64,000 bases of DNA from Utricularia gibba. Lineage: Eukaryota; Streptophyta; Magnoliopsida; Lamiales; Lentibulariaceae. The stretch lies in assembly GCA_002189035.1 (NCBI GenBank), contig NEEC01000011.1, forward strand, positions 310,001 through 374,000. The letters are read 5' to 3'. The position numbers were made by a program, and so were the translations under genes. The stretch's first letter is position 1. The number at the start of each line of letters is the position of its first letter. Of the stretch, positions 31,815-51,914 are shown piece by piece. Below the pieces are notes generated by a model. It was given only the letters and a program-made list of their open reading frames with translations. It was not told where the DNA came from and searched no databases.

Positions 31815-34800
31815 TCAAGAGTTTCCCTCATATGACGAGTGTTTTAGCCTTGAACTTGAAGCAGTGGTCAATTGTGAAGACAACAGAGTTGAATCTCTCC
31901 TTGATGGTGGCTCTGGTGTAGAAGAGACATCAAGTCGTTCATCTAGTATGAATATATTGAAGTTAGCATCAATAGAATTTGGATCTTCCCTTGTTTGTTG
32001 ATGATGATGATATCTTCCTCTTTTTTGAAAATCTATTGTACCCTTCAGCCTTGTTTTTTGGGTTGGTCCTCTTTTCTTTGCTCTGCGTCGTGATGGATCA
32101 ACCAATAGCTGAAAAGGTGCTGGTCCCCATTTCTGCTCATTTCGAACGGGATGAACCTGACTACTATATGTATTAACAAGATAATGAGATCGATAGTAGT
32201 CACTTACTTTGTCTTTTGGGTTCACTCGAAAGTGATGACAAGCCTACCAAAAATGATAATTAGTTGTGAAATCGTAATAATGTAATATATATATTTCATT
32301 TTAGTTTACCTTTTGAGCATGACAACAGGGGTAGCGGTCATATTGCCAAACTCCACAATCACATACTTGTTTTTTCACATTAACCTTGCAAGACTCTATC
32401 CCATCTCTTGTCTTGAATGTGATTTCTACCCCTTGCTCAAAGGAATTGTACACAGTACAATTGAGTTGAGATAGTAATCTGCATGCTACATCATACTTAT
32501 TTTAAATTTGTTCCTCAAATGAGATTCCTTTCGCTACTCTAGCATTGGCAGCCACCCTATATCTCTCGAAATATTCTCTACCTTTCTCAAAAGTAACCTA
32601 AATGTAATTTATTAGTGTCACAATCTGCATGTAATTGAACTATGGATAATAGTATTATCTTTGCAATTTCTATTGGTGGCAACCGACGAGCTTCACGCAA
32701 TGCACTGTTGAGCGTCTCCACATGATTTGTAGTCATGATAGTATGCCTTTTTTCAATTATTAAGTAAGGCTTATACTCCATAAGAAAATTAAATAGAAGA
32801 ATATAAATATAACTTACCGATGGCCATCGTCATATAATAAAGTCCACTAATTTAAGGGGATTGCTTTCATATACTCAAATGCCTTCAATTTTTTACTCTT
32901 TAATGCTTTCATGGCATCTTCAAAATCTATTCGTGTTCTTGCATATGATGCTCTTCGAATGATCTCACCAAAACCTTTTGTTTTGCATCCAGCATGCGCC
33001 ATGCAATTTTTCCGTATATGAAATACGCAAAATTTGTGCACTCCATGGGTGGTGAAAAACGCTTATAGAGCTTGTAAGCTGCTAAGAATCCTGATCCTCG
33101 ATCATTGATAAGACATACTCCTTGCCTCCCACGTATCACATATATATCTAATTGTTTCATAAAAGATGCTCAATCTTCCCCTCCTTCACTTGGCACAAAA
33201 GCATATACGATTGGGCATACAAAATTATTAGCATCAATTGCAACAGCACCCAATAACTTGTAATCATAACGACCATATAAATGCGTAGCATCAATGCATA
33301 ATACTGGTCTACAATGAGAGAAATCATCAATAGTAAATCTGAAAGTCCAGAATACTCTACGAAATATATAATTGTCATTCTCATCTACCCCAATATGATC
33401 CCATGTCACTATCGTTCCAGGATTTGTTCGACAACTTCCTCTAGATAACTTGGAAGTTTAGATAATGAGTCTTCCCATGTTCCATACCGTATCTCATATG
33501 CTTTATACAAACTTGACCAAGGTTGCCAATATGAAATATCATACCCTAATGTTCTTTTGCTATTGCAATAAGATCCTTTGCTATTAACTTTTCACGTTGA
33601 TGATTCATCAATTTCGCGGAAATCCCCGGCTTTGTTAAATTGCGATGAAATGTTGCAAGATTTGGTGTGACTTCACAAGTGTGAGGCTCTATGATCTTCG
33701 TAACTTTCCAAGTCTTTGATCGACGTTGAAATCCAACGTTGCAATAATAAGGACAATCAGAATGTTATTTGTATTTTTTCCAACACATCACACGATACTG
33801 GGCTTTATCATTGTGCATCATATAGTATTCTCTTTGCGCAATAGTGATATTATAATGTGCTATGGCATCGATGACATCCTGTCTCTGCGTAAAATGCATC
33901 CCAACTTGTAGTTGCTGATGATTTCCACGATAATAATTAAGTTTAGGACTTGAGTCATTGGCATCAGCAAAGCAATATTCAATCTCTGTATTATTCTCAT
34001 CTAATGATACAGTATGTTGTTCGTCTTCTTCAGGTAGTGGTTCATCATGAAATTCAACCTCTTCATCTACATAAACAATATCTAGTACATGATCTTGTTC
34101 TTTAACATGACATGCATTTTCATAAACACCACATCTATCTTCATCATAGAAATAAGTAGGTTCAATATATGTGTACCTGAAAAATTTAGATTTTTAAATA
34201 TCAATGAATGATTCAATAACTTATATTCATAAACATTTAACTTATGTAATCTCAAAAAAATATAATATAAGTGATTACATAAATTCAGAAATAAATAAAT
34301 AAACAATGAGATAATTCTAATAAATAAAAAAAATATTCATTTAAATGAACATGAAAAATCTACTAAATAATTTAATTGATAATAATTTAAACTTGCATAT
34401 TAAATAAAATATGTAACAAAATTATTAAACAAAGTATTCCGAAATGTTGATAGCCTGCATCATCAGTATTCTGTGTATAATTGTTGTTTTCCTCGAATGC
34501 ATAAGATGGATTTGCGAATACGTCGACAAAATCATCAAGTGTAGGATATTGTGTGAATCCATTACATGAATATTATAATATTAACTCAAAGATTATAAAA
34601 AAAAATTTAAAAAAAATTACTCACCTATGTGGCTTGTAGTAGCTTCACCATCCTTCGATTTTTTTGAAATATATAAGTCAACACCAAAAGCTGAGTTATT
34701 TGGATTAAATACGTATCGAATTGTTGATAAATTGTCGATTATAGCTTCATTCATCATTCCAACTGCTTTATCAATAAACTTGGCCCTAATTTCATAGTTA

Positions 34801-34973
34801 TCTGGATGAATAAGAATATCATGCTCACCTCCAATAATCTCTAACGGCTTCTTGAATGATATAGAATGCTTCACTTCAATAAAACCACATAGATCTCTAT
34901 CATAATAAGAGATACCATTAGTATCTCTTAAAATTTGACCACCATAATACAATTTCAAGCAAACTTTGGCCAT
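31815..34973 (-). pseudogene. Mutator-like element (MULE) transposase, slightly broken
   Basis: Read on the minus strand: an N-terminal block starting MAKVCLKLYYGG (34617-34973), a MuDR-type DNA-binding region ('FTQRQDVIDAIAHYNI', about 33.85 kb), the MULE catalytic domain with 'CIDATHLYGRYDYKLLGAV' (about 33.28 kb) and 'LINDRGSGFLAA' (about 33.1 kb), a 'TTNHVETLNSALREAR' block near 32.7 kb, and a SWIM zinc finger (CxC then CxH, 'VCDCGVWQYD', 'PCCHAQK') near 32.3 kb. A basic tail follows to about 31.8 kb. An in-frame stop near 33.77 kb ('KKY*HSDC') and a few shifts break it, but most of the frame is readable, so decay is recent. I found no convincing terminal inverted repeats or 9-bp duplication, so its ends are unknown. 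Confidence 0.85.
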
Positions 34974-34999
34974 TGAAAGAGATTTGAAAGGTCAAAATT

Positions 35000-37236: not shown

Positions 37237-38507
37237 TGAGATAAACGGGAATTTCCTAATATCGTTGCAAATAAAAATGGAAAATCCGAATCAAATAAAT
37301 TTATAGTCCCTAATCGACACAAAATACAAATTTAGAAAACTTGTATAGTGGATGTCGGGGTCAATCACGAAGAGCTTGTGCTTGCTAAGTATTTTAGTAG
37401 ATGCAATATTTCGAATAACAGTAGTTCTTAGTCTAAGCTCAGACTAATAGTGGTAAACAAGTTCAGTAAACAAGGTAGGTAAGCAATATCAGGTTTCTAA
37501 GATAAAGTAACAGGTACTGGTTTTGACTCAGACTAATACGAGAACGCCTTAAGGATCTGCGGGTGGTGTTATGCTAAACTTCCTAACTTAATTTATTATC
37601 TTGCTACACTCATAACTTTAAATAACCTAAGTCTACCCAGGTCATTCATCATATTTTTGGCTTAATCTAGTCCCCAATATCATAACCAACATTGCAATTA
37701 GGTCTACCCGCATGCAAGGCATATAGAATTAAGTCTACCCGGTTCTACTGGTTCTACCCTGGACTAACACCGACTGATTCTGTTTGATTTGTTGGTCTAC
37801 CTCTAAACCATGCATTTAAGTTGTGAAACTACTTGCTCCCCTCCTTAGGTCTACCCATGATTTGTTAGGAACAAGAGTTAAAGAAGACAACTAAATTTCA
37901 TCATCAACCTAAGCACATACCACCCACTTCTCCTTAAGGCATCCCTAAGACTCTAGCCACTCATGCTTTGGAAATAAAACATGATTTCATTCATATAAGT
38001 TGGTCAAAATGGCAGAAACATTATAAACAAGTAAAATGCAGAAAGTCGAAATGTTCAGAAAACTAGAAAGTAAATAAAGATTGTTCTTCCGCCCATTAGC
38101 TACTGTTCTCAATCCGGAACAATAGCGCTGGACTGGGCTCCGGTGCTTTTCTTGGTGATGAAGGCCTCCCTTCCCCCCTCTGGTTGGTGTTTCTCCCTTT
38201 GGGGAAGAAGACCCCCTTGCATCCCCCTCGCTGTTTGCTTCTTTTCGCTCTCCCCTCTTTTCGAAAATAAATTTCCCCTTTCCTTCACTCCATTGCACTG
38301 TTGCTATCCGCGAGTACTGTTCCCGACCGCCAGCACTGTTCCCGGCCTGAACTTGCAGATTGCGGTGGCGGCAGAATAGTGCTCTTTGTCCTTCTCCGGA
38401 TTTTGCGCCCCTTTTTGCTTGTTTTACACGTTAGCAAGTCTGATTTTCGGCTCATCTCCCTGCTGAACTTACTGAAACATTAGTAATAAGAGTTGTGGAC
38501 TAAATCA
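37237..38507. repeat. LTR-like repeat family A, complete copy 1
   Basis: It begins TGAGATAAACGGG and ends GGACTAAATCA. The first part (37237-37600) is repeated at 38954-39292, the middle part at 46138-46950, and the tail at 1-170. Flanks are 'ttatt' (37232-37236) and 'ttaat' (38508-38512), a possible 5-bp duplication with one mismatch. Size and TG...CA ends suggest a solo LTR, but there is no coding region attached to any copy to prove it. Confidence 0.6.
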
Positions 38508-38509
38508 TT

Positions 38510-38953
38510 AATTGCTTGTTAATGATTATGGGTTAGCAAAGCAACGGTATGTCCCTGTTGAGGAGGAGGTCGCTATTTTCTTAGGAGGGTAGGCAAGAGA
38601 GAAAGATACTCTAGCATACAAGAGTTTTTTGATTGGAGATGAGACACCATACATGCTGCATTCCACAATGTACTAATAGGATGACAAAAGGATTGGGGTC
38701 ATAGATGATACTCTAGTATACAAGAGTTCTATCCCTTTTTTATTAATAACTCTAAGTATTCATGTTTTAGGAATGGTATAGGGGGCCATAGATGGTACTC
38801 ATGTACTCATGTCAAGGCTTGTGTCCCGGAATTTAAGAATGTACTTTTCACTGATTGCAAAGGATCTTCACTCAAAATATATTAGTAGTTTGTGACTTTG
38901 ATATATGATTCACTTGTACAAAGGCTGGCTACAAAGGTGTAAGTCATGATAGT
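38510..38953 (+). pseudogene. PIF/Harbinger transposase relic, N-terminal part
   Basis: In shifting frames the stretch reads 'YVPVEEEVAIFL', then a block like 'DTIHAAFHNVLI', then 'GAIDGTHV' (about 38783-38806). These match in order the blocks of plant Harbinger (ALP1-like) transposases, where the last contains the first catalytic aspartate. Stops and frameshifts are numerous. The remaining part of the enzyme appears beyond the nested insertions at 46950-47170. Confidence 0.6.
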
Positions 38954-39292
38954 TGATAAACGGAAATTCTTATTATCATTGAAATAAAAATAGAATTCCA
39001 TATCAAATAAATTTGTAATTTCTAATACTCACAAAATACAAATTAAATACAAAATATAAACTGGAATTCGAGGCCGATCATAAGAAGCTTGTGCTAAGTA
39101 TCTCAACAAATGCAGAATTTAGAATAATATTAGCTCTTAATCTAAGTTCAAACTAACAATAGTAACCAAGTTCAGTAAAAAATATCAAGTCTCAATGTTG
39201 AAGATAAAAAATATTAATTCTAATAAAGAGTAATACTAGTATACCTTAAGAGTGTGCAGTTAGTGTGGTGCTAAAATACCTAATTTAATTTA
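38954..39292. repeat. LTR-like repeat family A, copy 2, left part
   Basis: It begins TGATAAACGGAAATTC and is homologous to 37237-37595 of copy 1. It is interrupted at 39292 by the MULE, and the final nine bases (39284-39292, tttaattta) are the left copy of the target-site duplication. It resumes at 46129. Confidence 0.75.
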
Positions 39293-41027
39293 CGTGGTAA
39301 TATTTATTTTGACCCTACTGTTTTGGTATAAATGATAAAAATGACCCAACTGTTTTTTTCCGTTAGTGTGTTAGATGGAAATAACCCAATTAATTGGCAA
39401 AAATGGTAACACTATTTGTAATTAATACAATTTTGACCCAACAAATCTTATATATAATACTCTTTTGACCCGATTCGACAATAATAACCTAAACCGATTA
39501 TGGCATGGGCGGAAATGACCCAACTAATTGGTGAAAATGGTCACATTATTTGTAAATTATAATGTTTTGTCCCATTCGTTTTTATAAATATTATCTTTTG
39601 ACTCAATATACTTGTTAATGGGTAACCAACATTGTAAACACCAAAGTTTGTTGTTTTTTAACATTTAAATACTAAAGTTAAAAATTTCTTATTTTTTTAA
39701 AAAATACCAAACTCTGGATACGATTCGATAATGTCATTATGAAAATGATTTCAATGTAGATTTGTTTGTGTTTTCATTAGAGTTATCTGCTTTTCAAGAT
39801 GAAACTAAAAATGAACATATTAAAATACTCCATTCGATGAAAAAATGAATACTGAATTTTGTAATCAAGAAATTAGAATGAAATACACAGCAACATTATA
39901 AGTATAAAAATATAGATACAACAAATATTTTAAAGATAAAAAATATTAAAAAATTAGAAATTATAGCATGTTTTACCAAAAAAATTATATTATTAATATT
40001 AAAATCTATTTAACTAATTCAATAAAAAAGTTTTTTTTTTTTTAAAAAAAAGATCAAACGGACATTGTGCTCTTAATAAAAAAATTGTAAAAAAATGGTG
40101 GTCCATTTTATTTCAGCCCATATTAGTTTAAAGAAAAACCAATTCATGGGGATAATTAGCGAAATACATAAGATTGGTAAAATATCTAAGATTTTAAACA
40201 TATAGGTGATATACTTGTATTTTCATATACTCATTTGAAAAATACCTTGTTTTTTCAACATTATCACATTAATATTATTACTTTTAATAAAAATATTGAT
40301 GTGCATTTTTATTTATTCAAAATCATTATTTAAAATATTAATTTACATATTTTGAAGAAACAATGAAAAACATATATTTCATTTTCAACTTTCGAAATAT
40401 CTGATTAATTATGTATTTTTGTCAAAATAATAGTTATGAATATATATAACAAAAATATGTTGATAAAAATTTTAAAATTTGGGATATAAATAAATGTTTA
40501 ATCAATTGAGTTAAATTTTCTTGTGTTTTATAATAGAAAAAATTAGTTTTATTAAAATAAATATCCACATAAAAAATAAAATCAATCAATTAGGATTTTA
40601 ATTTTTTCATTAAATAATAATCAATAGATATAATTTTTATATTTTATTTTGTACATTTAAAATGGATATAAAGATTTTATAAAAAATAATGTAATTCTAT
40701 AAATAACATATATAATTTATGTTGAATTATCAATATATAAAACATAATAATTAACATGTCTTTGTAAGATATGGTTAAAATATCATAATTTAAAAAATAT
40801 CATATAATACTTATGACACAGATAAACCCCTTATTTAGCTAGAGAAAATTAGTTTCATGGAAGGATTTTTGCATCTAGGGTTTCTGTAAATAGTTTTCAA
40901 ACGAAATCTAGCTATTGAGATAGATTGGGATTTTGTGTTAGTTGTTGGATGCTCATACGTTTTTTTTATTCATTATTAGTTTTAGTCAACTTACCCTGTT
41001 TTTCCTTCATTTGTTAATATTAGGACA

Positions 41028-43437
41028 ATGGATTCAGAAGATGAGAAACTACCTGATCTAGAATATGATAGTGATTATGTGAATGATTTTTATGAGATTT
41101 TGTATACACACTTTCCAGTTGATACGTATGTGAAGTGCGCTGTTGAGAAACCTTTGAAGAGTAAAAATGAACAAGATGTGAATTGTAAACCATTTAAATA
41201 TAAAGATAGTGAAGATGTGAAGGAAGAACCATCAATTATTACAGATGAAGGAGGGAGCCAAGTGGTAGAAGAAAATCTAAAATGGTTTAATATTGACCTT
41301 GGATGGACTATTCAAGAGTTAGAGTAACTCAAAGATCATGATTGATTTGTTATTAATTATCTTTATTATATATTGTGCTTCATTGAAGTGCTTTCAAAAT
41401 GCAGGGTTGGCACTTGCTTTACAGAAAAGATACAAGCTAAGCAACAATTAGAAGATTACTGTGTGAAGAAAGGTATTGAATAGAAGTTTATGAAAAATGA
41501 TGAGCGACGATTGATTTTGATTTGTAAATTCAAGGGCTGTTTTTGGAAGTTTGTTGTTAAGAGGAAAGAGCATTGTTGTTGGCTTGTTGAAGAGGTCTCT
41601 GATCATTGTGATGAATGTGTGCCTCAGTCAAATAATAGGTCGGTTAGACCACGGTTCATTGGGCGAAAATATTTCCAAAAGATTATGAATCAACCGAAGT
41701 ATCCACTGAAAGCTTTTTGTCGTGACGTTCAAACATATTACAACCTCCAATGTGCACCTCACACAATCAGAAGAGGTAAAGAGTATGCCCGGAAGTTGAG
41801 TACAGGTTTTGAAGTTTCACAATTTGTTAAATTACGTTCGTATGTGGCCCAATATAAGTAGTCAAATCTTGGAGCAACCGTTGAAATCTTAGAGTGTCGT
41901 GATGGTGATTCCGTTGATCGATTAATGTGCACAGGCGTCTACTTTTGTCCAAAGGTATGTTTTTTATTCTTTTTGTTATTGGGTAAAAGTATGGATTGAT
42001 TTTCTTCAAAATTTGTTGTTCACAAATTGCTTACATATAGGCTTGTAGAGATGGCTTTGCATTAAGTGAGAGGAAAGTGATTGGAGTTGATGGATCACAC
42101 TTGTTGTCTAATGTGCAAGGGAAGTTACTAGTGGCAACTACATGTGACCCAAACAATGGAGTATATCCCTTGGCATGGGGAGTAGTCGGAGGGGAGACAT
42201 ACAAGAGTTGGAAGTGGTTCCTTCGATTGTTTGTCAAGGATTATGGTATAACCAACGAGAACTCATCAACATTCATAGTAATTTCTGATCGAGGGACAAG
42301 GATTATTCTTGCCATTCAGCAAGTAATGCCGGGAATGCATGTAAGGTTTTATTTATTTTAAATAATTAGCATGAGATACACATGGTTTTTCATAACTTAT
42401 TTCTTTGTGCATTAAGGTTCGTTATTGTGTGGTCCATTTACTAAAAAACATGAGAAGACATGTGAGGGTTGATCTACCTGACAGAGTTCGACAACTAGTA
42501 TGGAATGCAGCACGATCAACAACTCAAGTAGAGTTCAAGGAAGTAATGAGAAAGTTAGAGGGGGTTTGCCCTAAGGGTCATGGTTATCTTTTAGCAATAA
42601 ACCCCAAGTATTGGGTGCGAGCATATTTTCAAAAGAGCAACAAATGTCCTTTGCTTACGAATAATAATTCAGAATCTCTGAATGCTGCATTGAAGGAAAC
42701 CCGTGGCTTACCCTTCATCAACATGTTGGACAAGATCAATGATAAATTTGCAGAGTGGTTTGTTGAGAGGAGGCAGGGATCACTTAAGTGGCCTAGACCA
42801 CTTGGGGATCGAATTGATGCGATTTTAGCAAGAAATGTTGCAGCTGGTAGAGATGGGTGGATAGAGATGGATGATAGAGAAAACTTTCGATGGTTCCATG
42901 CCAATGGCATCGTCACTCTGAGACTCAGAAATTGTTCATGTGATTGCAGAGAATGGCAAATCACAGGTTTGATTCTTTTCTGATCAGTTTTTTCATCTTT
43001 TTTGAAATATTTTTATCTATTATTCTTTCACATCCTAGGTATACCATGTAAGCATGCGTGTCAAGCTATTATTCACATCAAAGGAACATTATCAGAGTTC
43101 GTGCATCCTTCTTACTTCAAGGTCAATTATGTAGCGATACGATGGTGATATCTATCGGTTACCAGGTGCCAAGTATTGGCCCTCAGATGATCTGCCTCCA
43201 TTGTTGCTGCCACCTTGGAAGCATAGGAAGCCATGACGTCCAGCTAAAAAAAAGCTTCACGGATGAAAAGTGTGTTTTGCAATGGTTGTGGTGAGAAAGG
43301 GCATAATCGTAGGAAATACCCTAATAAAAAGATAGATGACGATACTAATGATATTGAGGAGCAAACTTGTGGTCCACCATCAGAAGACATAAATTCGACA
43401 AATGATGTCACTGAGGGTCATGTAATGATGATCACTT
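41028..43437 (+). pseudogene. MULE transposase with SWIM and zinc-knuckle motifs, two in-frame stops
   Basis: Exons about 41028-41324, 41404-41955, 42041-42340, 42417-42966 and 43039 onward; the junctions carry GT and AG and keep frame. Order: acidic N-terminus, MuDR DNA-binding region ('EDYCVKKGIE'), MULE catalytic domain with 'VIGVDGSHLLSNVQGKLLV' (first Asp), 'VISDRGTRII' (second Asp), a C/H pair in 'YCVVHLLKNM', 'NNNSESLNAALKE' (candidate Glu), SWIM finger 'CSCDCREWQITG' then 'PCKHA', and a terminal knuckle 'CNGCGEKGHNRRKY' whose last Cys is Tyr. TAG codons at 41481-41483 and 41859-41861 interrupt it. It would have moved the element through its terminal inverted repeats. Confidence 0.87.
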
Positions 43438-43559
43438 GACGAAGGATGGATCTTGTCAACAGAAAGGAAACAAGAGGAATCAACATGAACCCCAGGTATC
43501 GGAATAAGCGTTTACTTAATTTTAATCAATAGTGTTCAATGTTGTACAATCATGAATAG

Positions 43560-44755
43560 GTTGAACAACCAAAGCAAGATGCAACCAAACGGCGATCCGC
43601 CAAGCCCCAAAAGAAAACCAATGTCACCTTTCATTGTAGTTATGTTGAAGGAGGGGTTATAAATATGAACACCCGAAACGGGGCAAGATGTGCAAGTGCA
43701 ACAAGGCAAAATGGCAAAATTGAAAAGTGCACGAAAGGAGCCAATCGCACCACATTTAAGAGTATATGGTCGTTTGTGAGATGATGTTTTACAATCTGTC
43801 ATTGAGTAAGTAATGAGAAACAGTTTTTTCTAGCACATAATGATATTTGTCTCACTTTTTCTTATATTTTTATGACAGCAAACTTTCTAAGAAGCAACCA
43901 AATTCAAGGATGCGTGGAATAGTTATTGTTGATGTGTTGTGGTTTGGGAATGCAGCGGAGCGTAATTTTCAACATAGGCTAATGCCAAATTGGCTTAAAA
44001 GGAATGAACATGGAACAAGAACTACATAATTATTCCAATATGCATGAAGTAAGTAATGCTTATATGTATTTTGCTTTTGGTTTCATATAAGTCATATTAT
44101 ATGAACTTTATTTTCGTAGGGGCCATTATGGTTTAGCTATATTCTGTAATTTGGGATGCAAAGAAAATCGATGTGTTCTTGTACTTGATTCATTGCACTT
44201 AGACTACCAAAAAGGGCGTGAAGCTGCCATCCGCAGGTATTTTTTGTTTAGGATGATCCTAAATGACATATAGGTTGGGTATCTAATTGATTTCACTTAG
44301 GTTACTTTCTGTGATACTCATAGCAAATGGGGAAATTGAGGAGGATGCTTTAAAGGTTCTGATTCATTAGCCTTTGGTGAGTAATATGTAGTGATGTTGT
44401 TTCGCTTCATAGTACAAACGTTATTGTTGTGTTGATTTGACATATGCCTTTACAAGAGGGGGATCTGAGTGTGGGATTTATAAGTTGATGTACTTCGACT
44501 TATTCATAGCACAGAAACCGGAGAAATACATACTAGATGGTTACCCTCAATTTGTAAGTAATGACTTCTCATAAGTATTTTTAATATCATTTCATATCAT
44601 ATAGTAATTTATCTCTTATTTTATAGATGGTTCCGGAGTGGTTTACTGATGATGAAATTCGAAAGTTTGCACAAGATATGCAAATTCCACGCCATCGACG
44701 CAAGATTTCAGATGTGGGAACACAAGAGGGTGAAAAGATGGATTCTTATCTTTGA
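43560..44755 (+). pseudogene. Ulp1-like (C48) cysteine protease gene carried by the MULE
   Basis: A plus-strand series of short exons with GT/AG borders follows the transposase by about 120 bp. The catalytic pattern of SUMO/ubiquitin-like proteases is visible. The His is in 'GHYGLAIFCNLGC' (44124-44126), the Asp in 'CVLVLDSLH' (44187-44189) and the Cys in 'GGSECGIYKLMYFDLF' (44470-44472), followed by 'PEWFTDDEIRKFAQDM' and a stop at 44753-44755. Ulp1 domains cleave SUMO-like tags, and plant MULEs of the Kaonashi/CUMULE type are known to carry them. An in-frame TAG before the Cys exon (about 44368) suggests damage or a different splice. The N-terminal part (43560-43806) is basic and not recognisable. 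Intact triad residues are seen; activity is not claimed. Confidence 0.75.
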
Positions 44756-46128
44756 GTTATTAGCATTGTCATTTCATTTTTGTGAACTTATGAAACATTG
44801 TTGATCTCTTTTGTTCAATGGATATATATCTTAGCAGTAAGGGAAGCTCGGCCAGATTACCTAAATCCATAAATTCATAAATCCAATTGCCCATTATAGA
44901 TAATAATTATTATTTTGATTTTATGTTCTTCAACTGAGTTTACTCAATTATAATTCTAGCAATTGTTATAAAAAAATATCATTAGGTGTTAACATTAAAT
45001 TTATTCAAAATTTGATTTTAAACTTAATTATTTAGTAATAAATGTTCGAATTTATTATAATTATAAGTATTAATTAGTTAACATTCAATTTATTGTATAC
45101 TTTTTACATCAAAATAATATTTTCAACGTAAAATTCAACTTTAAATTCTATTAGATTTCTCCCAAGAATCCAAATTTAAACTCTAAATTCGTATTCATTT
45201 TACTTCCATAAATTTTAAGAATGTTTTTTTTTATTTTAAAGACCATTAAACCGATAAAATAATTATATATATAGACATATTTTTCTATTATTTTAGGATT
45301 ATAGTGATATGTTTAATGAATAGTGATAAGAAATATATATTATTGAAAAAAATCGAACAATATATTATTGGTAAGTTAAGTCAATACAAATTTTACAATA
45401 CTCTTTTAATCATAATCATAATTATCAATATATTCATCCGAATAGAATATTATTGAACAAATCTAACAATATTTGATTACAAAAAAGGGGCACTACATCA
45501 TGAAAAACAAGATTTGATATTCACCAACACCATTATCAAAAGAAATTGACAACAAAATTCCCAGTGAACGTTGAATGATTTATTTGTGGAATGAGTGTTG
45601 CCAACTTAAAATTTTTTAAATGATTATAATATTTTTTTACAAGAATTAATCACATCATATTCTCATTTTATGAACTCATATTTTTTAAAAATTCAAATTT
45701 TTAAATCAATTTTATTATCTTATTTTTCATTTAATTGACAAGTTCTAATATCAATGTAACCATCTTTATAAACACTTTAATTTTTTTTTAAAAATCAAAC
45801 ATGGGTCAATATAGATCAAAATGCATATGGTGGTTGGGTCAAAACAACAAAAAAAAAAGATAATGTTGAACCAAAGTAGCTCCATCCACAAGAACGTTAG
45901 GATCAAAACCACATAATTGAAAATGTTAATTGGGTCAAAATAGTTCTAAATAAAATTTATTAGATTTAAAAAGTTATAAAAAAATATTTGTTGAGTCAAA
46001 AGTGGATCACATGGGTCAACATAGTCAGATTAGAAAAATAGTGGGTCATACAAGTTAGACCGGCTCAAAATACGTAGATCAAAATGGATAAATAGAATAA
46101 ACAGTGAGGTCATAACTTCCATCACCTC

Positions 46129-46950
46129 TTTAATTTAGCTTATTCTTATACTCACAACTTTAAACAAACTAAGTTTTCTTAGGTCATTTATCATGTTTTC
46201 GGCTCATATAGTCCTCAATATCATTACCAACATCGCAATTAGATCTACCTGCATGCAAAATGTATAGAATTAGGTTTAATCGGTTCTACTTGTTCTACCC
46301 TAAACTAATACCTACTACTCTCGTCTTATTTGTTGATCTACCTCTAAATCAAGCATCTTAGTTACAAATCTACTTGTTCCCCTCCTTAGATCTATCCATG
46401 AAATTATAGAAACAAGAACTAAGAAATAAAGATAAATTTCATTATTTACCTTAGATCCACACCACCACACTTTACCTTAAGACATCCCTAAAGTTTTAGT
46501 TACTCAGACTTGAAAGTTAAAACATAATGTCATTAAGATTAGATAGCCAAAGTAATAGAAACATTGTTAGGAAGTCTATCACAAAAACTAAAACATTTAG
46601 CAAATGAAAATAAAGTAAAAGATTATTCTGGTTCCCATCTGCTAGTGTTCACTGTCTGAAACAGTAGCGTTGAACTGGATCTTGGAGCTGTTCTTCAGGT
46701 TGGGGAGTCTCCTTCCCAATAATCTCCTTCTTTTTCCTTCTTGTTCAGTGTTGATGTTGTTGGAGGAGAGAACCACCTCATGTGTGTTGTTGAAGCTATC
46801 CTCATGATTCTCTCTCCTCCCGATTTTCTCTTCTCTCTCACTTCCCAAAGCAAGTACAATCTCTAACAGTTCTATTGCTTCTACCCCTGACTTGCAGATT
46901 GTCACTGCGACAGTGTACTCATTGCTTCCTTCTCCTCCTGCTGCATGATG
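46129..46950. repeat. LTR-like repeat family A, copy 2, right part
   Basis: It resumes where 39292 left off, sharing 'tttaattta', and matches 37596-38390 of copy 1 (for example 'cattaccaacatcgcaatta' and 'cccctccttagatctac'). Near 46930 the match to the copy 1 tail fades, so the last 100 or so bases of the repeat are lost or strongly diverged. Confidence 0.75.
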
Positions 46951-48156: not shown

Positions 48157-49302
48157 TCATTTCTCTTCGAACTCAACATCTATGATGCCAGGATCAGACT
48201 TTGAAGAAGAACCAGGGCCTCTGCCTTTTGAGAAGTCACCTTGCGGCTGCCACACGATGTTTCCACAGCTTGCGCATCGAATGGTTTGGCTCTTGTACCC
48301 CATGAATTGCCTTCTACACGCAGGGCATTCTCCCTGCTCCGGAAAATTTATACCACATGAAGATTATGGGGATCGACCAAATGTGTTTTTGGAATACGAG
48401 CAGAAGGGCAATAGCCTTCCTTACCTTTATGACAAGATTATTTGCCAAAAGCCCGATCACGAGAGGGCCGGCTAATGGCAGCACCCATGTGGTGAAGATA
48501 AGGACTCGGAATAGCCATCCTGACAGAGCAAACCACACAAAGAAAAGCGTCTGCACAAATATCAAAGAAACGACCTCAGTTTGATAAATATCAGCAAGAC
48601 TTTCTACTTGGAAATATCGTGCAAGAGTTCAGATACGAAAAGCGTCGATCTCAGTTTCGAAACGAGATGCTTAAGAGAAGCAGGATAAGTGAATCAGATG
48701 AACAAGGCATAGAACCACTGTCATTTAAGATAGGAACATGCACTCACAGCAAAGCTTCTTCCCAGAGGGGTGTCCAGGAAGTCATTGAGCTGCCTCCTGT
48801 ACTGCAAAAGAAGAAGGCAAGAATGTAAAAGAGTTGCGATGAAAAGGGGAGAAGCAAAAAATATCTTGCAATCATGAAAAAATTTCATCGTTCCGATAGA
48901 AATCTAGTGGCGAATCAATACCTTGGGCAAATTTGACATGAACTCAAGCGAGAACGCCCGCCACCGCCGATTAATTTCAAAATCGCGGTCGAGCGCACGA
49001 GCCCTATCGGCCACACATTGCGCTGCAGAAGAGAGCCGCCTCGAAATCTCATACCTCCGGTCCAGCAGCTCCGCCGTTTTACTCGTCTCGTAGACCAAAA
49101 GCTCGAAGCCGTCGTTAGCCTTCCTCCAAGCGTCACGCCACGCCTCTCCGGAAGCCAGTCGCTTAGCGAAACCGTCAACGTCACTCCGCCTGAAAGCGCG
49201 CACAGTATTCACGCGGCAGCGTATTACCACGGCGTTCGCTGGATTTCGAAGTCGGCATCTCGTGTGGATCACAGGGCGGCAAAGTATGCCGGAAGCAGCC
49301 AT
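48157..49302 (-). CDS. Putative plastid membrane protein with C-terminal zinc ribbon, function unknown
   Basis: Exons: 48922-49302, 48748-48801, 48425-48550, 48157-48333, giving 245 residues with intact junctions. The start is ATG at 49302 (MAASGILCRPVIHTRC). The Arg/Ser-rich, acid-poor N-terminus looks like a plastid or mitochondrial transit peptide. Residues about 45-125 are charged and helical ('YEISRRLSSAAQCVADRA'). Exon 3 encodes a strongly hydrophobic stretch of about 38 residues, enough for one or two membrane helices ('WVLPLAGPLVIGLLANN'). The C-terminus is a four-Cys zinc ribbon: 'CPAC' and 'CASC' 17 residues apart. I recall similar uncharacterised plant proteins but no function. A membrane-anchored zinc ribbon facing the stroma is only an inference. 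Confidence 0.82.
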
Positions 49303-49530
49303 GGACAACACAGAACCGTGAAAATGAACTCAAAGGCGGAGGTTGCTTGGACCTTTGAAATACGGAAATTACTATTTCCACCCTGGATCCATAGATTCAT
49401 GGGAATACACTTTTTTATTTATAAAAATAGCAAAAACACACCGCATTTTGCAGAATGTTCATTTCAGCTGGTAACAGTTGAACTTGTACACACACAAAAG
49501 GAAACCAATGATGATGATGATGAGGCTTCT

Positions 49531-51914
49531 TCAGATAGCTCCTGGGTGCGGGTTTGCATTCTGCTCCGCTGCAGCAGATCCTTGAGGAGGGTGCTCTTGC
49601 TCTTGCTCCTGCTCTTGCTCTTGGAGGGGTGGCTCAGCCCCCACCTCGGCATGGTGAAATTTGACGACTATGCAGGTGATATTGTCCGCACTCCCGTGAC
49701 TGAATGCGGTTTCTGTCAACTTCCGCGCCGCTGCTTCTGCGTCCTCCTCGGCCAGCCCGATCGCGACAGCTTCCTGCAAACCATGTCAACAGTGAAGTTC
49801 ACAGGGGGGAAAGGCGGAGAGATGATCAGCCGGCCGGCGGGGTACCTCGTTGGGTACGACGTCCCACAGGCCATCACTGGCGAGTACAAGCAGTTCCAGA
49901 TCCAGGTCGATCTCTTGCTCCTGTAGAATACAGGAGGAGTGGATTATAAACTTGACAAATCAGGTGTTGGTTGAGGAGGCCGTGGCCTGCTTTACTCCAG
50001 TCCTTAGTCACCTGAATCTCAGGTTCAGCCACAACAAACTGCTTCAGCATTCGATTGCCGAAAGCACGAGACATCGCCAGGACACCTCCGACCCTCCATG
50101 TCCCTGAAAATCATATCGCTGTTGAAGCTCCGAGCGTGCATGTGTTTGTGACTCATGCTTTCAGCTGTAATAGATAACAGAGGAAGCCAAACCTGCCCAC
50201 ATCACCACACCTCCTGCGTTTTCAATCCTCTTCCGCTCATCGATCCTGTTTGGTTTGTGATCTTCAGAGAGCGGGATTGCTGTCGAGGAACAAGAGAGGT
50301 GAGCGAAAAAGAAAATCAAGAAACACTATTGGTTCTTCTGAAGGTATCGCGGGCTACTTAAAACATAGATAACACATTGGGTGAGCAAATCATAGTGAAA
50401 ATTTTGAAGCAAATTCTCCAGCCAGAACATATATTTCATCGAAACGAGCAACAGAAGTTAAAAGTCATGCAGTCTGGACTGCCCACAGACTCTCTTGCAC
50501 GTTTGCGTGATAAAGAATAAGAGTACAGGCTACCAAGCGATCTATGATAAAGATTGCACCTTTCCCAGTCTTAGACATGATAGTTCGAGAATCTCCAACA
50601 TTAGCAACATAGAGGTGATTGCCGATGACAACTGCCGTTGAAGCAGTTGAGCCATCATCACGAGTGATATCCTTTTCTGATTCCAAAAACTCCCTGTCTG
50701 TCTGCTGATAAGTCTCACCTGTAGAACGTTATCATCAAGGGCACCTTCCTAGAAGAATTTCAGAAAAAACTAAAACTACAGCAGCATATTAAGACCACAC
50801 TCAAACGTCACATCACATCTCACAGTTGAATTTTCATCAGCGTATCTTTAAGCTGGAAATGATTCAGAAATGATTGGTAATCCTCATTAACAGAAACATG
50901 GATAACTATGAAAGCCTAACTATGAACGGGAAAAATATGTCTTGAGATAAATTGGGGATGCTCACTGATGGCCAACTTCGTATTTGAAATAAATTCTGGG
51001 TGTCTCATAAGATTTTCAAAAAGGTGTTCCTTCAAATATTCTGCAGCTCGAGAGCCACCATGGCCTGCATAAAGATAACAGCTTGATTAGGAGCCTAACG
51101 AGGCAGCATACTTTACTCCCATCGAGGGGGGAAGAATGACACATATGATATACACCCATTTCACCATATTCAATTAAATTAAAGAAAAGAATGAACATAG
51201 TCAACTGCGGACGTGCATCATTCACGGTAACTTAATCCAGTTAGTTTTGCTAGTCATCACCACATTTATTCAGTGTTTTAAAGCCATGAATTGTTCTCCG
51301 GCCATCACACATTAAGCTGCAATAAGCAATTAGAGATCCACATGGCGCAGGCTTACCATCGAAAATTCCAAATAGGCAAATTGGCTGCCCATCAACTTCT
51401 GAGAACTTTATGTCAAAAAAGTCTTCCATGGTAGCTCGCTTCCCCTTAAAACTGGAATAGCCACAACTTGGTCTTCCATCTTCCCTGTAAGAATAATTGG
51501 GACAGACTTCAGTTAATGTGACCGCAAAATATGAAAAGAATTCAAAATATAAAGCTACAGCCTGTGCAAGGCCAACACGCCGTATGCTAAAAGAATAAAA
51601 AAAAACAAACCTATCTAATTCACATGCCATTGGGACTACCAGCGCCGCAACCAAAATATGATCAAAGTAGAAAATTACTAACAAAATGCATGCAACTACA
51701 AGCGTTGAATTGAAAAATAACAAAAAGCTAATGAAACCAGTTGCTAGGGTCACGCATGAAATGAGCAAGGAAACCAATCCACTATTATTCATAATTGAAG
51801 TTAACAATTCCCTAACCTCTTCCATCCCCCGCTAGCAAAGCTTCCATCCTCATCCCCTTGCAGTATAAAATCAGGCATGGATCCCTTTGCAGTAGAACCG
51901 CAATCTACCATCAT
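49531..51914 (-). CDS. Protein phosphatase 2C (PP2C76/PP2C11-like)
   Basis: Exons: 51817-51914, 51357-51484, 50966-51064, 50560-50718, 50193-50279, 50012-50103, 49846-49920, 49531-49773, totalling 981 bp, 326 residues, open. It is a Mg/Mn-dependent Ser/Thr phosphatase. Metal ligands and motifs: 'TMEDFFD', '[17 protein letters not shown]', '[12 protein letters not shown]', 'VANVGDSRT', 'SEDHKPNR', '[17 protein letters not shown]', '[14 protein letters not shown]' and '[11 protein letters not shown]'. The layout matches the Arabidopsis At5g53140 (PP2C76) group. The frame is open upstream to 52031 without an ATG, and that upstream peptide ('KAGHLLRICGTSL') resembles the family N-terminus, so the true start may be further 5'. 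The C-terminus has an added Glu-Gln repeat (49593-49622). Confidence 0.92.

Follow-up and report, generated by a model that had tools for sequence, protein, structure and literature searches.

C48 protease exons in phase with the transposase of a plant Mutator-like element and their putative ULP2-type origin

Layout of the element and its exons

The window, that is, the whole stretch of 64,000 nucleotides analysed here, is placed at contig C255:310001-374000 of a plant genome of 100 Mb (G000). It contains a Mutator-like element (MULE), and the segment 43560-44755 within this element holds five Peptidase_C48 (Ulp) exons and a linker exon on the transposase strand. The model of 11 exons comes from comparison of sister copies, with the copies free of frameshift taken for each exon. 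The features are as follows.

39284-39292, no strand: left 9-bp target-site duplication, TTTAATTTA
39293-46128, plus: MULE, 6.8 kb; its ends agree between copies
41028-41323, plus: T1, acidic N-terminal transposase exon, ATG at 41028 (from open frame and phase)
41405-41954, plus: T2, MuDR-type N-terminal region, with two in-frame stops in the window copy
42041-42340, plus: T3, first part of the transposase catalytic core (PF10551 MULE, E=2.2e-15 in sister copy C409)
42417-42966, plus: T4, second part of the core (Transposase_mut, 9.7e-8 across T3/T4 in C409)
43039-43495, plus: T5, SWIM and CCHC zinc-knuckle exon, frameshifted in the window (SWIM PF04434, E=1.2e-5 in C409)
43560-43805, plus: U1, linker exon with motif APHLRVYGxLxDDVL, in phase with T5, frameshifted in the window
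43879-44048, plus: U2, first C48 exon, window frameshift at about 44008
44120-44236, plus: U3, C48 exon with catalytic His (GHY) and Asp (VLDSL)
44301-44376, plus: U4, C48 exon, TAG stop in the window copy
44444-44553, plus: U5, C48 exon with Gln and catalytic Cys; 1-bp deletion and loss of the acceptor AG in the window
44627-44755, plus: U6, last C48 exon, terminating with a stop
46129-46137, no strand: right 9-bp target-site duplication, TTTAATTTA

In C409, T2 also gives a weak DBD_Tnp_Mut match, under the cut-off. The original prediction of an element bounded by a 9-bp duplication is borne out. TTTAATTTA is present on both sides, an empty site with a single target copy (CTTAATTTA, near 37587-37595) lies in a paralogous repeat at 37240-38506, and perfect 9-bp duplications are also found in sister copies C98 (GTAAATCAT) and C505 (ATTCTAGAA). 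The C317 copy has a 9-bp duplication with one mismatch. The 5' end reads CGTGGTAATATTTATTTTGACC and the 3' end is CACCTC, as opposed to CACCCC in most copies. The ends are degenerate over about 30 bp. Terminal inverted repeats match at 20 of 30 bases in the window copy (0 of 5000 shuffles) in an anchored comparison; free-ended gapped alignment slid into AT-rich sequence. The repeats are weak in the copies of this family generally (about 30 bp, 16-20 of 30 bases matching), and non-TIR MULEs are already known (PMC2528002).

The repeat at 37240-38506 belongs to another repeat family, of which a second copy (38952-39292 and 46129-46924) was split in two by the MULE insertion; its copies are about 70-80% identical, and more of them occur in the loci at C142, C255:1.21M and C317. 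Near the 5' end of the element, 39377-39593 holds an 83-bp direct repeat with 134-bp spacing, and C98 and C317 have extra sequence close to it. Elsewhere in the window, open frames on the minus strand at 33765-34991 are reminiscent of the N-terminal part of a MuDR-type transposase, possibly of a second MULE. Overlapping open frames occupy both strands at 48904-50107, and the minus-strand frame at 49531-49785 is reminiscent of the end of a PP2C protein phosphatase.

Phase is kept at every junction from T1 to T5 and from U1 to U6, giving a single composite frame of about 1000 codons, and the T5/U1 junction is phase 0 in sister copies. These phases suggest that transposase and protease share one reading frame and are expressed from a joined transcript. 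The C48 exons do lie on the transposase strand inside the MULE, as had been predicted, but they do not stand as a separate downstream gene, since the phases chain them to the transposase. The window copy itself, with stops in T2 and U4, frameshifts in T5, U1, U2 and U5 and a lost U5 acceptor, is a pseudogene and encodes no working protein.

Copies and families in the genome

The window's family, here family A, has nine further copies or fragments. Copies C409, C142 and C98 are about 95% identical to the window element and C317 is about 90-94% identical, followed by C255:1.21M, C451:4.19M, C505:0.17M, C375:0.09M and C2:2.89M at about 75-90%. C505 and C2 (2.89M) have lost most of the transposase and kept the protease exons. 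The C142 copy (L039 6264-7592) carries an insertion of about 1.3 kb within U6.

With the protease as query, a protein search of the genome finds same-strand protease exons about 1.2-1.6 kb behind a MULE transposase at C2:3.29M, C1:3.32M, C255:0.64M, C413:2.73M and C409:0.45M. The protease at C375:0.23M has its nearest transposase about 5 kb upstream, and C415 has two further protease loci. Family B has members on C2, C1, C255, C413, C375 and C415; at C1 and C2 the core of its transposase shares 42-47% identity with that of the window element. For the transposase of family C (C409:454200-457600) the figure is about 26%. Two copies of family B were examined, and in each a single open exon of 156 codons encodes both the CCHC knuckle and the linker APHLRVYGELMDDVL, which is evidence of fusion independent of any splice inference. 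Most other MULE transposase loci examined have no protease within their 1.5-kb flanks, so the fusion is not universal among MULEs.

In family B, the protease exons at C375:229900-231700 (L069) have no stop and keep all four active-site residues, insertions relative to C2 being uncounted. The family B protease regions L066 (C255:641600-643420) and L069 have frames that are open or nearly so, and their omega is low; they are candidates for more recently active elements. In L025 (C375:233781-237155), a Gln-Cys protease exon (E 2.4e-7) on the plus strand near 365 is opposite in strand to the nearby MULE transposase. This could be a KAONASHI-like reverse-orientation arrangement.

Protease domain, introns and constraint

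The predicted His, Asp and Cys motifs are found in the expected place, order and strand, GHYGLAIF and LVLDSLH in 44120-44236 and GGSECGIY in 44444-44553, with splice borders between the exons that bear them. In C98 the series His-Asp-Gln-Cys reads in order GHY, VLDSL, VPLQ and SECG, and the active-site Gln, which the original prediction did not name, lies in VPLQEGGSECGIY, where exon U5 starts in the sister copies. The window copy has Gln and Cys in different frames because one G is deleted and the acceptor AG is lost. The spliced exons of the window copy give no Pfam match, C48 included, at E 0.1, because this copy is broken. The C48 profile match looked for by the original prediction is thus missing from the window splice and present in its sister copies: the spliced domains of C98 (E=2.6e-7, 31.1 bits) and C409 (5.6e-5, 23.5 bits) match PF02902 above its curated cut-off of 20.7 bits. 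By family the C48 matches are 2.6e-7 for A, 4e-6 for B and 2e-11 for C, with B and C likewise above the cut-off. His, Gln and Cys are invariant in four aligned sequences from families A, B and C; Asp is replaced by Asn in C409 only. The active site reads HY in families A and B and HW in the host genes, and this replacement could point to a different substrate or to reduced activity.

Against solved relatives, a profile of the three transposon families scores best with SENP7 (2e-18), followed by yeast Ulp2 (1e-6), SENP2 (3e-6) and SENP1 (2e-5). By profile and introns the domain is nearer the ULP2/SENP6-7 class than Ulp1/SENP1-2, so that the label 'Ulp1-like' does not hold in its strict sense. 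An ESD4/Ulp1-type origin is ruled out on the same two grounds.

The C48 domain is interrupted by four introns. Intron 1, of phase 2, splits the codon that lies two residues ahead of the catalytic His, intron 2 is phase 2 after the Asp region, intron 3 is phase 0 directly before VPxQ, and intron 4 is phase 0 and precedes WF by four residues. The position and phase of each of the four agree in family A (the window), family B, family C and the host gene L005, a ULP2-type gene whose best solved relative is SENP7. Host gene L003 has the first two introns in common, the readable parts of L003 and L007 agree, and both share the start of the Gln/Cys exon with the transposon proteases. The ESD4-like host gene L004, closest to SENP1, keeps His and its upstream residues in one exon and has an intron between QENG and YDCG, unlike the transposon proteases. 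By a simple random-placement reckoning the probability of four coincident introns is about 5e-10, and they are most simply read as inherited from a shared ULP2-type ancestral gene that had introns. Over the domain, amino-acid identity to L005 is about 22%, which rules out a recent capture from the host gene.

Close copies of family A show no consistent codon-position bias in transposase or protease, and transposase omega between the window and C409 is 0.98. Recent family A copies decay neutrally in both parts. With too few changes and post-insertion decay, close copies are uninformative about selection, which was then compared between families and within family B. Comparison of A with B puts pN/pS at 0.48-0.70 in the protease (C98-C2) and at 0.39-0.54 in the transposase (C409-C1), both as 95% bootstrap ranges; omega at this depth is approximate because dS is saturated between families. 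Within family B, the C1-C2 pair has a protease omega of 0.19 (pN/pS range 0.08-0.45) and a transposase omega of 0.24 (pN/pS range 0.14-0.46). Pairwise protease omega among six B copies is 0.19-0.78, and its upper bootstrap limit is below 1 in 12 of the 15 pairs, which are non-independent. This matched constraint, together with the invariant His, Gln and Cys, indicates that the protease is kept about as strictly as the transposase, both between A and B and within B. The copy comparison proposed at the outset therefore divides by depth: recent copies are neutral in both parts, and purifying selection acts on both between families and within B. A neutral protease beside a conserved transposase, the pattern named in advance as contrary to the prediction, is absent; neutrality or constraint hits both parts alike.

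Origin, possible function and known relatives

The A, B and C proteases group apart from four host proteins with support 96.1/98 in a nine-sequence tree, although the sequences are few, the branches long and the hosts from one genome, and the relations among A, B and C are less certain. Families A and B have the linker motif in common, and A and C share GYPxF/MxPxWFT at the last junction, which is absent from host L005. These features point to a single ancient capture of a ULP2-type gene with introns, which has been retained ever since. The protease had been described as captured or carried, and both appear to apply, as it was probably captured with its introns and has been carried since before the three MULE families diverged.

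We favor, as the probable history, a transposase-protease fusion in a MuDR-type MULE that arose by capture of a ULP2-type gene, was inherited and constrained, and may aid the element by removing SUMO, the window copy being dead. An ancestral MULE would have acquired the genomic form of a host ULP2-type SUMO-protease gene, with its introns. Introns, phases and tree suggest that the captured gene came to continue the transposase frame after its SWIM/CCHC end. At least three MULE families in this genome would have inherited the fusion, and purifying selection has held the protease about as strongly as the transposase, as seen between A and B and within B. In its likely mode of action the transposase part would bring a SUMO isopeptidase to the element, where removal of SUMO from the transposase or from silencing chromatin would help expression or transposition. 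The window copy would be a dead descendant of this fusion lineage.

ULP2-class relatives act on SUMO conjugates, and it is from class only that SUMO is the presumed substrate here. In Arabidopsis, SUMO1 and SUMO2 function in transposon silencing (PMC6084981). Together these make desilencing or protection of the transposase plausible. According to a review, KIU-carrying elements act in anti-silencing (PMC13317346); two VANC papers make no mention of ULP or SUMO. A bolder form, which we put forward tentatively and consider rather unlikely, is that of a transposon-encoded SUMO eraser, in which DNA binding targets the element, SUMO-dependent silencing is stripped and one capture founded a long-lived, dependent MULE class.

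Introns by themselves cannot separate one capture from several, because the host genes have the same introns, and different MULE families may have captured ULP2-type genes independently, keeping the host introns each time, with the history otherwise as above. From the scatter of ULP families in the transposase tree, the grapevine study argues that capture was repeated (or loss frequent) (PMC2528002). The separation of A, B and C from the hosts (96.1/98), the linker common to A and B, and GYPxF/MxPxWFT, common to A and C and absent from L005, all speak for a single event instead, and we regard several captures as unlikely.

Less probable still is polyprotein processing, in which the protease would release itself from the transposase by cleavage and SUMO would play no part. 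Viral processing proteases are among the C48-like relatives, and the one-frame fusion and the HY variant at the active site would suit such a role, but the closest relatives by profile are SENP7 and Ulp2. That the protease is Pack-MULE style cargo, picked up lately by the window's family and without a role, is very improbable: MULEs often carry gene fragments, close copies are neutral and the window copy is broken, but the domain and its introns also occur in B and C and the linker in B, identity to L005 is low, family B is under purifying selection, and the presence of the protease in families with transposases 26-47% identical to the window's largely refutes this explanation.

The single inherited capture thus remains our preferred reading, and it can be set beside known systems. 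ULP domains in plant MULEs have been known for two decades, and whether they are cargo or a working part is unsettled. The common introns, the fusion in frame and the matching constraint favor a working part that came from a host gene long ago, and family B offers a usable test case with the open protease at C375:229900-231700. The host ULP2-type genes (L005, L003 and L007; human SENP7) have the C48 class and the domain intron positions in common with the transposon proteases, but they have the HW active site and no transposase, and L005 is only about 22% identical over the domain. Hydra and lancelet Mutator elements carry Ulp1 domains, and Ginger1 has a C48 domain on the C-terminal side of an integrase-type transposase (PMC2836005); all of these are animal elements, possibly of independent origin. 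In Arabidopsis, KAONASHI (KI-MULE, or KIU) is a MULE family with a C48 domain of about 200 amino acids, spread by transposition. The predicted kinship of kind is confirmed, as the window's C48 exons lie inside a MULE as in KAONASHI and the melon elements, but the KI-MULE ULP is in reverse orientation to mudrA (PMC2528002) and that of the window family is on the same strand and fused. ULP-bearing MULEs are also described from melon, rice and grapevine (Mutavine families; van Leeuwen 2007, as reported in PMC2528002). Compared by description, as far as that account goes, these have a transposase followed by a C48/ULP region, in the same orientation in some families, and 9-bp duplications, with TIRs present or absent; exon phases, introns and selection, which are given here, do not figure in what PMC2528002 relates of them. 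ULP-MULEs are thus already known from Arabidopsis, melon, rice and grapevine, and the present family is one more, whose history is clarified by its introns and phases.
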